Shown here in pieces: positions 35,521-47,796 of a DNA stretch of 64,000 nucleotides. The notes beneath the pieces were generated by a model, which had not been told where the DNA came from, did not search any database, and saw only the letters and a list, made by a program, of their open reading frames with translations. The position numbers were made by a program, and so were the translations under genes. Position 1 is the first letter of the stretch. The number at the start of each line of letters is the position of its first letter. Origin of the DNA: an uncultured Bacteroidota bacterium (lineage in GTDB: Bacteria; Bacteroidota; Bacteroidia; Flavobacteriales; Flavobacteriaceae); the NCBI GenBank assembly GCA_902554655.1, contig CACDPE010000002.1:62001-126000 (forward strand). The letters run 5' to 3'.

Positions 35521-36273
35521 TTAATTTAAAGCAGTACTTAGTTTTTCATTAAAATGATGTCTTTCGGTTGTTCTGCTGTACATTTCAAGAGCATCATTAT
35601 ATTCTTGAGCGTCTTTTCTGTATGCTTCCCATCCAAACATTTCATTATACAATTCTTCCATGTTTTTTTCAGTATCGGGGAATTCACCTCCTACACCATA
35701 CTCATTAAATCCATCACAAATTATGTATTCATTAGTATTTCCACCTGAAATAACTCTAAAAATTCCTGTAATTCCAGTGTAGTTATGTTTTTCATAAACC
35801 ATTTTAGCTCTTTGTAAAAAATGAACAACTGCTTGATCATGGCCAGGCTTTATGAAACGCCTTTGTACTAACATATATTTGAAAGTAGTTGTAGGAGTCC
35901 AGTTATGTGATATTCCAACAAGTCTTCTCCAGACTTTCCAGCCTGTTGATTCTTCAATAAATGGATCAACATTGTCTTTCCAATATTTTAACTCTTCAGA
36001 TCTATCTTCTTGAGAATTCATATAGCTCCAATCTTTCCATCCCACTACTCTTGAATACATACCCTGGTTTTCACCATCCATAATTTCAAAAGTAAACATG
36101 GCATTCTCAGCTGTTGAATTGTATTTTTTCATTTTTTTAGCCGCTGCCTGTATAAATTTATCTTCCATACCTTTTTTAGGTTTTAACTCATAGCTCATCC
36201 ATATTTCAGGGCCATTTTGTGCAGAAATTATCAATGTGAAAAGCATTGATATTATAAGTGTAATTTTTTTCAT
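35521..36273 (-). CDS. Secreted protein of unknown function, tandem family member
   Basis: Signal peptide MKKITLIISMLFTLIISAQ; same size class and domain layout as neighbours. Confidence 0.7.
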   Translation of the reverse strand: MKKITLIISMLFTLIISAQNGPEIWMSYELKPKKGMEDKFIQAAAKKMKKYNSTAENAMFTFEIMDGENQGMYSRVVGWKDWSYMNSQEDRSEELKYWKDNVDPFIEESTGWKVWRRLVGISHNWTPTTTFKYMLVQRRFIKPGHDQAVVHFLQRAKMVYEKHNYTGITGIFRVISGGNTNEYIICDGFNEYGVGGEFPDTEKNMEELYNEMFGWEAYRKDAQEYNDALEMYSRTTERHHFNEKLSTALN

Positions 36274-36291
36274 AATATAAATTTAATTTGA

Positions 36292-37086
36292 TTAGTCCCA
36301 AGTAGAATCTAAATGCTCGTATATTGAGCTTGAAAAAGCTGAATTAAAGTCAGTTAAATCATTTTCTACAATATATTTTCTAAAATTTTGCCAATGAGGA
36401 TTTTCACTAATTCCACCATTTTCTTTATAAGATCTTCTATTTAAAATATCTTCTAAGGAATCATATCCATCAAATGAAATACCATTAGCTATGGTTGATT
36501 CTCCTTCAGAATAAGATCCAGATGTGACAAGAGTAGCAACAGCCCAGTTTGATCCTTTATTTTCTTCTAGTTGTGGTTTTACCACTAACTCCCCCCACGC
36601 TATATTATTTTTAATGAATTTTTCTTTGTCAGGATATGCAAATTTAAATTTATTAAATACAAAGTAATTTGATCTTTCATTATCAAACACAGCACCATTA
36701 ACTTGCCATAATTCATTGTCACTTAAAGATTTCCATTTCCATTTAGAAGAATCTGGTGCTTCAAGACCAAGCCTTTTTGCTTCATTAGGCCCCCATAAAC
36801 TACCTCCTTTCGCATATTGTTCAGGGCTGTTGTAGTGATGGAAAAATACAAATACATTTCTTTTTGAAAATGATCTAAACATTGCCCATCCAGCCCACTT
36901 ACCGTCTTCTACAGCTTGTTTTGATAGAGGTTTATAATATTCCTTATTGGCTTTGATAAATTCTCCAATATTTCCTTCAACTTCTAAGACATGCATTCTT
37001 ATTAAGTAAGGTGAAGGTGAGTCATCTTGAGCTCTAAGACTCAAAATAGGTATTGCTAAAAGCAACAAATAAATTATTTTTTTCAT
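36292..37086 (-). CDS. Secreted protein of unknown function, tandem family member
   Basis: Signal peptide MKKIIYLLLLAIPILSLRAQ; similar pattern IRMHVLEVEGNIGEFIKANKEYYKPLSKQAVEDGKWAGWAMFR. Confidence 0.7.
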   Translation of the reverse strand: MKKIIYLLLLAIPILSLRAQDDSPSPYLIRMHVLEVEGNIGEFIKANKEYYKPLSKQAVEDGKWAGWAMFRSFSKRNVFVFFHHYNSPEQYAKGGSLWGPNEAKRLGLEAPDSSKWKWKSLSDNELWQVNGAVFDNERSNYFVFNKFKFAYPDKEKFIKNNIAWGELVVKPQLEENKGSNWAVATLVTSGSYSEGESTIANGISFDGYDSLEDILNRRSYKENGGISENPHWQNFRKYIVENDLTDFNSAFSSSIYEHLDSTWD

Positions 37087-37248
37087 GTCAATTATTTTAA
37101 AAAAAGCTATAAATAATTATCGATTATTTCTAGTTTTTCAAATTAATATATTGTTAAATTATATTATTCATAATTTGATTATTATTTATTATGAATTTTA
37201 CATTTTAATTAAGAAATTATTATAAAATCAGTATTGTAAATTTATCAT

Positions 37249-42426: not shown

Positions 42427-43295
42427 TTTGCTTTAGGCACTTTTTCCATCTGATTATATATTGCTAAAATTATAATTCCAAATGCAATTCCACTTACTAA
42501 CAAGATAATACTAGTTAGTCCTATTGCACTAAATGATAGCCTTAGTAAAATTGTCGAAATAATAAATCCTGTATTTCTAATTAATTGTGAATATCTCTCG
42601 GTATATTGAAATGAAATTAAAAGAATAAATACATCTACCAATATCAATATTGTAAAGAAATCTATAAAAAATAAATAGTTTAGATTGTCATCAAATGGTT
42701 GATTAGAAAAAACTCCATTATACCAATCAAAAAAACTTATTAAACACAAAGTTGTTAATACAGGAACCAAGATTAAACTTATGATGCGTTTATAATTAAT
42801 GAATCTTTCAAGATTTTTATTAACTGAAAGTTGAGGCAACCTTTCTTTTAATTTTCTAAAAATAAGTATTAAAAAAAATACAAGTAAAATTCCAGACAAA
42901 TCATAGATAAGTTGAACATTATTTTGATTAATAAGCCAATTCCCATCTAAATTGACCTCAGGAATGTCTTTAAAAATCTTTCTTATCAAGATTAATGACA
43001 TTATTTCATATTGTTTGCCAACAGATGTTGTAAATGATCTAGGCAGATAATAAATCAATAAAAATGCTTCATATACTAAAATGAATGAAAATGGTGTATA
43101 TATAGCTGAAATAGGGTTTTGTAATAATGTATCTGAACCAAATGAAAGATTTAGTACACCATTATTGTTTAAAAGTATTAATGTGAGGTGTATTACAAAA
43201 CCTATAGTTGCAAAAAATAAAATAAATTTTTCGAACTTTTTAAGGTTTTTCTCTGAAAAAACCTTCAAAAAAAGTTTTTCAATTTTAGCATTCAT
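42423..43295 (-). CDS. Hypothetical multi-pass membrane protein
   Basis: 290 aa hydrophobic ORF, no family recognised. Confidence 0.65.
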   Translation of the reverse strand: MNAKIEKLFLKVFSEKNLKKFEKFILFFATIGFVIHLTLILLNNNGVLNLSFGSDTLLQNPISAIYTPFSFILVYEAFLLIYYLPRSFTTSVGKQYEIMSLILIRKIFKDIPEVNLDGNWLINQNNVQLIYDLSGILLVFFLILIFRKLKERLPQLSVNKNLERFINYKRIISLILVPVLTTLCLISFFDWYNGVFSNQPFDDNLNYLFFIDFFTILILVDVFILLISFQYTERYSQLIRNTGFIISTILLRLSFSAIGLTSIILLVSGIAFGIIILAIYNQMEKVPKAN

Positions 43296-43425
43296 TCAGC
43301 TAATTTCAATAACAAACGACCAAAAAACATTCCAAATTCATTTTGTTTAGTTTTTTTTTTATATAATTACTGTAAAATAACAACTACTAACTAGCGTTTT
43401 ATTTATGAAAATTAAGTTTTAAAAT

Positions 43426-43599
43426 ATGTTTAAAAATTTTAAAAAATCTACAGTATTATTATTATCAGCAGCTTTTATTTCATTTTTATTATCTGTAACC
43501 CTATGGTTCTCAGGATTTAAAGATGAAGGAATGTATGTTGGGTTGTGGGTTCCCTCAATTTTAGCTTTCGGTTCATTTATAAAACAAAATTACAAGTAA
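43426..43599 (+). CDS. Small membrane protein (57 aa)
   Basis: MFKNFKKSTVLLLSAAFISFLLSVTLWFSGFKDEGMYVGLWVPSILAFGSFIKQNYK; not in ORF track. Confidence 0.6.
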   Translation: MFKNFKKSTVLLLSAAFISFLLSVTLWFSGFKDEGMYVGLWVPSILAFGSFIKQNYK

Positions 43600-43602
43600 G
43601 AC

Positions 43603-43770
43603 ATGGAGATCTATTTATTTTTCGTAGGATTTTTAGTTACATGCTTGGTTATAGCTAGTATTTTTTTAATTAATTCAGAAGAAAAGGATAAATACAGCGA
43701 CATTGATAAATCAAATGAAGTAGATTATGACGGTATGGGAAACTATGGTAGGTTCCCGCAAAAAAATTAA
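43603..43770 (+). CDS. Small membrane protein (55 aa)
   Basis: MEIYLFFVGFLVTCLVIASIFLINSEEKDKYSDIDKSNEVDYDGMGNYGRFPQKN, 3 nt after the previous small ORF. Confidence 0.6.
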   Translation: MEIYLFFVGFLVTCLVIASIFLINSEEKDKYSDIDKSNEVDYDGMGNYGRFPQKN

Positions 43771-44114
43771 CTTTTTCTTCTAGCTTCTATAAAGCTTTTA
43801 ATGAAAAAAATTAATGCTATGACAGAGGACATAATCATTGCTGATACTCTACCAATTGCAATATCGTTTCCTCTTTCGATTGCACCATTTAGTGGCATAA
43901 ATAGACCAATCAGACAAATAAAGGTTATTAAGACCGCTATATGAGCAATTATTTTATTCTGATTTTTTACACCATTAGTACATAAAAGTAAAATAACACC
44001 AAAGATTACAGGAATTAATGCAGTTATTGACTTACCGTCACCATCAAAATAACCCCAACTTCCAACAGCTATAAGTATAATTGAATTTAAAAGATTTGCT
44101 TTAGATGAATTCAT
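43767..44114 (-). CDS. Hypothetical membrane protein
   Basis: 115 aa, multiple TM segments. Confidence 0.65.
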   Translation of the reverse strand: MNSSKANLLNSIILIAVGSWGYFDGDGKSITALIPVIFGVILLLCTNGVKNQNKIIAHIAVLITFICLIGLFMPLNGAIERGNDIAIGRVSAMIMSSVIALIFFIKSFIEARRKS

Positions 44115-44136
44115 ATTTTTCTTTTAAAATTAACAC

Positions 44137-44880
44137 TTATAATATATATGGCAAAACAGCTTTTCTTTTCTTTGGATAATTGTCAAAGTGCTCATTATAC
44201 CATTCATGATGATTTAATGCTCTTGGTACTAAATTAAAAAAAGTCCAAAGTGCAAAACTAAGTGCAGCAAAATTAAATGCAATGAAGAAATAACCTATCC
44301 ATTCGATTATTTCTCCAAAATGATTTGGACATGAAATTAACCTAAACATGCCTCCATTAGGAATTTTGTATCCATCACTATCTTTTCTTAGTGAAATAAG
44401 TTTATTATCAGATTGAATATTAATTAACATTCCAGCTATAAATAAGAATACTCCAATTATAAAAATTGTATTAATATTTATATCGGAATTTAGAAAATAT
44501 CCGACATATATACCGTTCAATAAGCCATTTATACAATTGAACACAAATGCACTAATAGCAATGGATATTGGCATCTTCTTATTCTTAGTTTTAATTCTCA
44601 ACGGAAAAATAATGACTCTATTTAAATAGTGTATAAACCATAAACTGATAAGTAATATTGACTAAGAATTCAATTCATTTTTTCCAAAAACACTAATCAA
44701 TGGCATCAATAGTAATGCAGGAAGTTCCATCCAAAACCACCCCCAAGAATTATTAATCATAAAACCCCAACCATCTGATGAATGTCTTCCATACGGAGCC
44801 CTTACTTTACTTATTATTAAATAAGAAAAAGTCAATAAACCAATTACAATCCACAATAAAATAAACTTATCAATAGACAT
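44137..44880 (-). pseudogene. Steroid 5-alpha-reductase-like (SRD5A / DUF1295-type) gene interrupted by one in-frame TAG
   Basis: Track ORFs 44662..44880 (RAPYGRHSSDGWGFMINNSWGWFWMELPALLLMP) and 44137..44601 (NGGMFRLISCPNHFGEIIEWIGYFFIAFNFAALSFALWTFFNLVPRALNHHEWY) are in the same frame. The 20 codons between them read SILLISLWFIHYLNRVIIFP and complete the expected family sequence; only TAG at 44664-44662 breaks it. Confidence 0.85.
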
Positions 44881-45007
44881 AAAGAACTACTTATATTAAT
44901 ATCTAAAGTCAATTTAGAAAAAACTTGGGAACTATGTTTTTAAGTTTTTAAAAATTTATTTTCATAATTAAATAAATTTTAATCAATAGTTTAATTTTAT
45001 AAATGTT

Positions 45008-45793
45008 ATGATACTTAAAAATTACAGAATAAATGCATTTAATTCTGAAAATTTATTTGGTAATCCAGCTTGCGTAATTCCTCTAGAAAGTTGGTTGTCT
45101 GATGATAATCTACTTAAAATTGCCAAAATAAATAATGTCTCTGAAACCGCTTTTTTTATAAAAAAAAAATCAAAATTTCATTTGAGATGGTTTACACCAG
45201 ATATAGAAATGGATTTGTGTGGCCATGCGACTATAGCTGCAGCACATTGTATATATAAACACCTAAATTTTAATTCAAAAAAAATATTTTTTGATTCTAA
45301 CAGTGGCGATTTATCTGTAAATGTCATTAATGATTTATATCAATTAGATTTTCCTAAACGTAAACCAATTGAATCTGATTTGCCTGAAGAAATTTATAAT
45401 TCTTTAAATGTTAAGCCTGAAAAAGTATTAAAATCAAGAGATTATGTTTTGGTTTATAATAATATTGAGGATATAATAAATATTAAAATTGATAGAAAAA
45501 TTTTTGATAAAATAAATATTGATCCAGGAGGTGTAATTTTAACTTCATTAGGAAACGATTGCGATTTTATTTCCAGATATTTTACTCCTCAGTCTACTTA
45601 TTTTGAAGACCCTGTAACAGGATCTTCTCATTGTTCATTAATACCATACTGGAGTTCGGTTCTTAAAAAAAATGAAATGATTGCTAAACAACTTTCAAAG
45701 GAGGGAGGTCAGCTAATATGTAAAAATTTAGATGATAGAGTATTGATTTTGGGTAAGGCTAAAACTTATTCAGTTGAAGAAATTTTTATTTAA
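45008..45793 (+). CDS. PhzF family phenazine biosynthesis-like isomerase
   Basis: YRINAFNSENLFGNPACVIPL, RWFTPDIEMDLCGHATIAAAH, RYFTPQSTYFEDPVTGSSHCSLIPYW. Confidence 0.95.
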   Translation: MILKNYRINAFNSENLFGNPACVIPLESWLSDDNLLKIAKINNVSETAFFIKKKSKFHLRWFTPDIEMDLCGHATIAAAHCIYKHLNFNSKKIFFDSNSGDLSVNVINDLYQLDFPKRKPIESDLPEEIYNSLNVKPEKVLKSRDYVLVYNNIEDIINIKIDRKIFDKINIDPGGVILTSLGNDCDFISRYFTPQSTYFEDPVTGSSHCSLIPYWSSVLKKNEMIAKQLSKEGGQLICKNLDDRVLILGKAKTYSVEEIFI

Positions 45794-45890: not shown

Positions 45891-46325
45891 ATGGATATAA
45901 TAAAAATTATAATATTTACATTATGTATTCTAATAGTATTTTATTCAATAATTAAAAAAAATCGTATTTATTTCAATTACGGTTATCTAATAATTGGACT
46001 ATTAATAATTTTTGATCAAATAAATATTTACATTGACAATTTAGATCCTTTAAACTTAGCAATAGCTTGTCTTTGGTTAATTCAGGTAGTTTTAGTCATT
46101 CCAAATAGATTACCCCCTTTAACTAAAGATGGAAGCGTAGTTGCAAAATCAGCTGTTCCTAAAATAATGATTAGCCTTTCTATAATAAATTTTTTTGGTG
46201 CTTTTTATGCATCGCAAGTAGATTATATTCCTTCAGCTGCAGTTTATGGGCATATGATTTTAGGTCTGCTTCCAATCTTCCCTGCATATTTTTTACTAAC
46301 GGGAAAAATAGAAACCATAGATTAG
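45891..46325 (+). CDS. Hypothetical membrane protein
   Basis: 144 aa multi-pass ORF. Confidence 0.6.
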   Translation: MDIIKIIIFTLCILIVFYSIIKKNRIYFNYGYLIIGLLIIFDQINIYIDNLDPLNLAIACLWLIQVVLVIPNRLPPLTKDGSVVAKSAVPKIMISLSIINFFGAFYASQVDYIPSAAVYGHMILGLLPIFPAYFLLTGKIETID

Positions 46326-47207
46326 TTATTTTTTTGTAGTTAAATATAAACCTGTAAAAATTAACATTGATGCAACTATTATTGTAGCACTTAAAACGTC
46401 AGACTTAGAGTATATAGCATATGCTACACCGATCACTGGTTGTAAATATACAAAAACAGCAACTTCACTTGACTTTAATCTAGTTAACGCATATCCATTT
46501 AAGAAATAAGTCATAAAAGTTGTACAAATAACTACATACAACATTGGCAATATGGCATCATATAATGGTAAATTAGTCCATTCAACGAGTATAAATTGGT
46601 TAATTCCTAATGGAAAATTAAATATTAATCCAATTAAAAAAAGCCATTTGAAAAGAGTTATTAAATCATATTTTTCTGCCATAGGTTTTACAATTATTAA
46701 GTAATACGCATAGCTTATACTATTTATTATAAATAAAAAATTTCCAAGGGGAATATTTCTGCCTATTGAACTGGTCATATCTGCATTGATAATTAATATC
46801 ATTGCTCCTATAAAACCAAGAAAAATTCCAATAATTTTAGATGAATTAATTTTATTCTTAAATATGAAGTAAGATAAAATAACAACAAAAATAGGTGTGA
46901 TAATTATTAATATTGAGCTGTTTATAGGTGTTGAATAGTCTAATCCTGCAATGAAAGTAGCAATGTTTATACCCATTCCAAAAAGACCACATTTGAGAAT
47001 TGTTAATCTATCCTTTTTTTCTATTTGTTTAGAATCAAAGAATAGACTAATAACCCAAAATAAAATGGTTGCACCCAGCACTCTTAATAATACAAATCCA
47101 AGTGAACCTATGTAAATAGGCATTACTGATTTAGCTACAGTATGATTAATTCCATAAATAGTGGTTGCTAAGGTAGCAGCACCAAGAGCGAAAATCTTTC
47201 TTTGCAT
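46326..47207 (-). CDS. EamA/DMT family transporter
   Basis: Ten-TM-like layout with two EamA repeats. Confidence 0.9.
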   Translation of the reverse strand: MQRKIFALGAATLATTIYGINHTVAKSVMPIYIGSLGFVLLRVLGATILFWVISLFFDSKQIEKKDRLTILKCGLFGMGINIATFIAGLDYSTPINSSILIIITPIFVVILSYFIFKNKINSSKIIGIFLGFIGAMILIINADMTSSIGRNIPLGNFLFIINSISYAYYLIIVKPMAEKYDLITLFKWLFLIGLIFNFPLGINQFILVEWTNLPLYDAILPMLYVVICTTFMTYFLNGYALTRLKSSEVAVFVYLQPVIGVAYAIYSKSDVLSATIIVASMLIFTGLYLTTKK

Positions 47208-47214
47208 TGTACAA

Positions 47215-47796
47215 TTACTGACTAACTAATTTTGAAATATATTTTCCAACCATATCAAACTCCAAATTAACAGTATCTCCAACCTTTAAGTTTTTAAAAT
47301 TTGTATGATTGTATGTGTAAGGTATTATAGCTACTGAAAATTTATTCGTTTTAGAATTGACCACTGTTAAGCTAATACCATTAACAGAGATAGATCCTTT
47401 TTCAATAGTAATATTTTCAGACTTTTTATATTTAAAAGAAAAATACCAACTTCCTTTTTCTTCCTTTATATCTTCGCAAATAGCTATTTGATCAACATGC
47501 CCTTGAACAAGATGTCCATCAAGTCGATCACCAATTTTCATTGCTCTTTCGAGATTAATTTCATCACCAATTTTCCAATTTTTAATTGAGCTTTTAAGAA
47601 CAGTTTCCTTGATGGCAACTACAGAGTAATTATTTTCAAAAATGTCTACGACAGTTAGACAAATTCCGTTGTGAGAAATGCTTTGATCAATTTTTAACTC
47701 TGAGGTTAGGTCTGATTCAAATGTAAAAATTAGATTATCTCCATCTTTTTTAATCTCTTTTACCAATGCGATATTTTTTATAATTCCAGTAAACAT
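47215..47796 (-). CDS. ribE: Riboflavin synthase alpha chain
   Basis: MFTGIIKN start; duplicated lumazine-binding motifs ISHNGICLTV and ISVNGISLTV; GHLVQGHVD. Confidence 0.96.
   Translation of the reverse strand: MFTGIIKNIALVKEIKKDGDNLIFTFESDLTSELKIDQSISHNGICLTVVDIFENNYSVVAIKETVLKSSIKNWKIGDEINLERAMKIGDRLDGHLVQGHVDQIAICEDIKEEKGSWYFSFKYKKSENITIEKGSISVNGISLTVVNSKTNKFSVAIIPYTYNHTNFKNLKVGDTVNLEFDMVGKYISKLVSQ

Follow-up and report, generated by a model that had tools for sequence, protein, structure and literature searches.

A single in-frame TAG in an SRD5A-family gene of an uncultured Flavobacteriaceae bacterium, probably a recent null allele at the edge of a divergent tract

Introduction

Proteins of the SRD5A family (Pfam Steroid_dh, PF02544) are represented among bacteria by PbSRD5A, for which a crystal structure is available (PDB 7c83), and in human by SRD5A2, in which residues Q56, E57 and Y91 are essential (PMC7815742). 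Belinky et al. (2021, PMC7918605) argued that bacteria widely carry internal stops in genes under purifying selection, and a single stop found in one genome, with a sense codon in all relatives and no other decay, is the pattern of a recent nonsense null allele or pseudogene.

Here we describe a gene of this kind in a window of 64,000 nucleotides (the whole stretch of DNA analyzed, to which all positions refer unless stated otherwise) from a 1.10 Mb draft genome of an uncultured Flavobacteriaceae bacterium, assembled in 47 contigs and 68% complete. The gene shares with PbSRD5A and its family end-to-end homology, the catalytic Glu and Tyr and an NADPH-binding C-terminal domain, and differs from them in having a premature TAG at codon 73 and Met51 in place of Gln. 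Like the in-frame stops described with purifying selection (PMC7918605), its stop lies in an otherwise constrained-looking gene, but unlike those it is conserved in no second genome. It matches a recent nonsense null allele in all the features named above, differing in that the stop adjoins the edge of a recombination-like tract.

Results and discussion

An SRD5A-family gene interrupted at codon 73

The gene occupies the minus strand from 44880 to 44137 and comprises 247 codons followed by TAA, with TAG at codon 73 (44664-44662) as the sole internal stop. A first-pass annotation, made from the sequence alone, had placed the ORFs 44662..44880 and 44137..44601 in one frame and described an SRD5A-type gene intact except for this codon, with a bridge between the ORFs that resembled the family; translation of 44880..44137 and comparison with homologues bear out each of these statements. 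The TAG is separated from a TTG at 44601 by 20 sense codons with no other stop, and the bridge (SILLISLWFIHYLNRVIIFP) is homologous throughout, with H84, Y85, R88 and P93 invariant in 73/73 homologues. The stop divides the product into an N-terminal fragment of 72 aa (44665..44880, minus strand), which has the invariant Glu52 and a YGRH motif and which gave no Pfam match when searched alone, and a C-terminal portion of 174 codons (44137..44661, minus strand), which has the HYxxR motif with Tyr85 and carries the whole NADPH-binding Steroid_dh domain. Directly downstream on the same strand is an intact 115-aa ORF of unknown function (43767..44114), which follows the SRD5A-family gene in the nearest relative too.

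When the TAG is read through, the protein scores 168.9 bits against Steroid_dh (cut-off 22.6) and is matched end to end by the PbSRD5A structure (E = 1.9e-62), and the structure of human SRD5A2 (7bw1) likewise aligns along it. Given this agreement of relatives, Pfam domain and structures, the interrupted frame is not a chance one. In the alignment to human SRD5A2, E52 falls on E57 and Y85 on Y91, and both residues are invariant in 73/73 homologues; the remaining invariant family positions are all intact in this genome. The Gln position of the Q-E-Y motif is occupied by M51 (window about 44728-44730, minus strand), as it is by Met in 70/73 of the Bacteroidota-type homologues, the other 3/73 having Gln. 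Steroid substrate specificity should therefore not be assumed for this protein and, as human SRD5A2 cannot do without this Gln (PMC7815742), the Met51 group may have a different substrate or mechanism, while membership of the family (fold) is unaffected.

Relatives carry a sense codon at the site of the stop

Relatives match the read-through protein over its whole length, with amino acid identities of 96, 95, 88 and 77%. The first-pass annotation had suggested orthologues as a guide to the original codon, and the three nearest relatives (genomes G022, G011 and G018 at 96, 95 and 88%, respectively) all have TTG (Leu) at codon 73, so that the lesion amounts to one substitution, a T>A transversion (TTG>TAG). 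Codon 73 is sense in all homologues inspected: no in-frame stop was found in 73 distinct homologous sequences, nor was a second occurrence of the TAG site found in viral contigs. Uninterrupted full-length orthologues are present in 19/22 other genomes of the genus, and also in other genera; the three genomes of the genus without one are drafts, 57-71% complete. Relatives' orthologues are all single genes rather than naturally separate ones, which upholds the split-gene reading. Residues at position 73 in homologues are mostly L, V, F, Y, I or A, which makes the position a loosely constrained, variable hydrophobic site.

The interruption is also isolated within the part of the genome compared. 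The window and 180 kb of contig 1 were set against about 240 kb of G022 and a stretch of G011; of the roughly 75 orthologous ORFs covered, in which a gene present in both relatives counts twice, this gene was the only one interrupted, and no frameshifts or further stops were met in the genes compared. Other apparent interruptions were discarded as the opposite strand of intact genes, for example 46729-47112, which is antisense to an EamA gene.

We consider it probable that the SRD5A-family gene is a very recent null allele that arose by TTG->TAG at codon 73, whether imported with the surrounding tract or produced later. A single transversion would have turned the Leu codon into a stop, UAG would terminate translation after 72 residues, between the catalytic E52 and Y85, and the truncation would be expected to leave no active enzyme. 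The rest of the gene would be undecayed because the lesion is too young for decay to have set in; such intactness is to be expected of a very young lesion and does not count in favor of readthrough. Pairwise dN/dS over the gene against G022, G011 and G018 is 0.10-0.18, a sign of purifying selection that would also suit a functional gene, and the differences from G022 after the stop (three synonymous and two non-synonymous) are too few to test for relaxed selection. Of the four explanations that the first-pass annotation had offered, the TTG of the three nearest relatives and the one base change best support a recent null mutation or a strain polymorphism, with consensus error retained behind these and both readthrough or recoding and two working polypeptides disfavored, as discussed below.

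The stop lies in a tract of high divergence

The TAG is located 40 bases inside the low-coordinate edge of a tract of 919 bases (44623..45541), amid dense neighboring differences, a setting that the earlier reading from sequence alone could not show. Across this tract the genome differs from G022 by 10.6%, as against 0.4-0.9% in the flanks (0.44% at 42600-44622, 0.4% at 45542-45790 and 0.86% at 46400-47790), whereas G022 and G011 differ from one another in the tract by 3.0% only. The tract covers the 5' third of the SRD5A-family gene and most of its divergent neighbor, an intact PhzC-PhzF family gene (45008..45793, plus strand). The clean flanks place this genome clearly as sister to G022; within the tract it falls outside G022 and G011, yet is closer to both than is G018 (about 17% in the part that aligns). 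A search for the donor in 23 genomes of the genus still returned G022 as the best match, at 90%, and as none of these genomes is nearer to the tract, the donor is unsampled. Judging from these divergences, homologous recombination with an unsampled sister lineage probably brought the tract in, or else it is a strain chimaera in the draft. The TAG may have come with the apparently imported segment of ~0.9 kb or may have arisen afterwards; its position 40 bases inside the edge, surrounded by dense differences, is what makes import conceivable.

The foremost alternative is an artefact of sequencing, amplification or assembly, in which either the consensus base is wrong or two strains were joined near 44623, the real gene being intact. 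The fragmented and incomplete state of the draft is consistent with such an error, as are the closeness of the TAG to the tract edge and the fact that the gene is otherwise perfect and the sole broken one of 75; two strains joined in the draft assembly would give the same pattern of divergence. Divergent tracts do, however, occur elsewhere in the alignment of these genomes, as at 36000-37200, a second, independent mosaic tract in which, over about 1 kb, it is G011 that stands apart, with up to about 25% divergence from this genome and from G022 alike, and mosaicism therefore seems to be general here and natural. The absence of frameshifts and other stops from the genes compared also speaks against an artefact, as does the normal coding of the tract in the PhzF gene. 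On balance we think an artefact unlikely, and we infer that the base is real. Whether a null allele or a consensus error, the case would be biologically ordinary, and would offer at most a modest instance of a newly arisen null allele within a probable recombination tract, in an uncultured Flavobacteriales bacterium.

Evidence that UAG acts as a stop codon in this genome

Recoding of TAG was rejected on several lines of evidence. The release factor RF1 is intact (358 aa), and RF2 is a 345-aa open frame, also intact; one TAA that appeared to lie inside RF1 was dismissed, the profile having merely run beyond RF1's own stop. A suppressor tRNA and further in-frame TAGs had been suggested as signs of recoding, and neither came to light: no CUA anticodon was present among the tRNA genes found, an absence that is not absolute in a draft 68% complete, and the roughly 75 ORFs compared held no other in-frame TAG. 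TAG is moreover the true end of 5/71 genes, which stop at the same point as in the relative, where two of those five end in TAA. UAG is thus read as stop, and the case raises no question on the genetic code; rather, it warns against mistaking a lone stop in a draft genome for recoding.

Programmed or leaky readthrough of UAG, yielding a little full-length enzyme and perhaps serving down-regulation, could be argued from the lack of other decay, from dN/dS below 1, from the many residues tolerated at position 73 and from the internal stops under purifying selection reported in bacteria (PMC7918605). Nevertheless, the argument from such internal stops depends on their conservation, whereas this one occurs in a single genome and hence is not conserved; the intact RF1, the lack of a suppressor tRNA among those found and the use of TAG as a normal terminator speak against readthrough, and the youth of the lesion fully explains the pattern; we therefore regard readthrough as improbable. 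More doubtful still is a variant in which the TAG would serve the unsampled sister lineage as a functional leaky stop that holds the reductase at a low level, and would have been brought here by homologous recombination.

That two polypeptides are translated separately and then come together as an enzyme is scarcely credible, for while both ORFs are still open and the TTG at 44601 is a possible start, no in-frame ATG, GTG or TTG occurs from the TAG up to Tyr85, the product of a restart at that TTG (codon 94, the earliest canonical in-frame start) would be without E52, Y85 and the HYxxR helix, the N-terminal fragment has the Glu without the Tyr, and the relatives all have single genes. Restart of the C-terminal portion was accordingly rejected on the position of its start, beyond Tyr85.

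A neighboring segment shared with a distant member of the genus

Beyond the PhzF gene, G022 and G011 both lack the segment 45860-46288 at the corresponding position. The segment's ORF (45891-46325, plus strand) encodes a membrane-like protein of 144 aa, for which no Pfam match was found, and is 94% identical to an ORF of G021, a distant genome within the genus, where the counterpart lies about 25 kb from the SRD5A locus. This high identity to a distant genome, together with the absence from G022 and G011, suggests a recent transfer between species.
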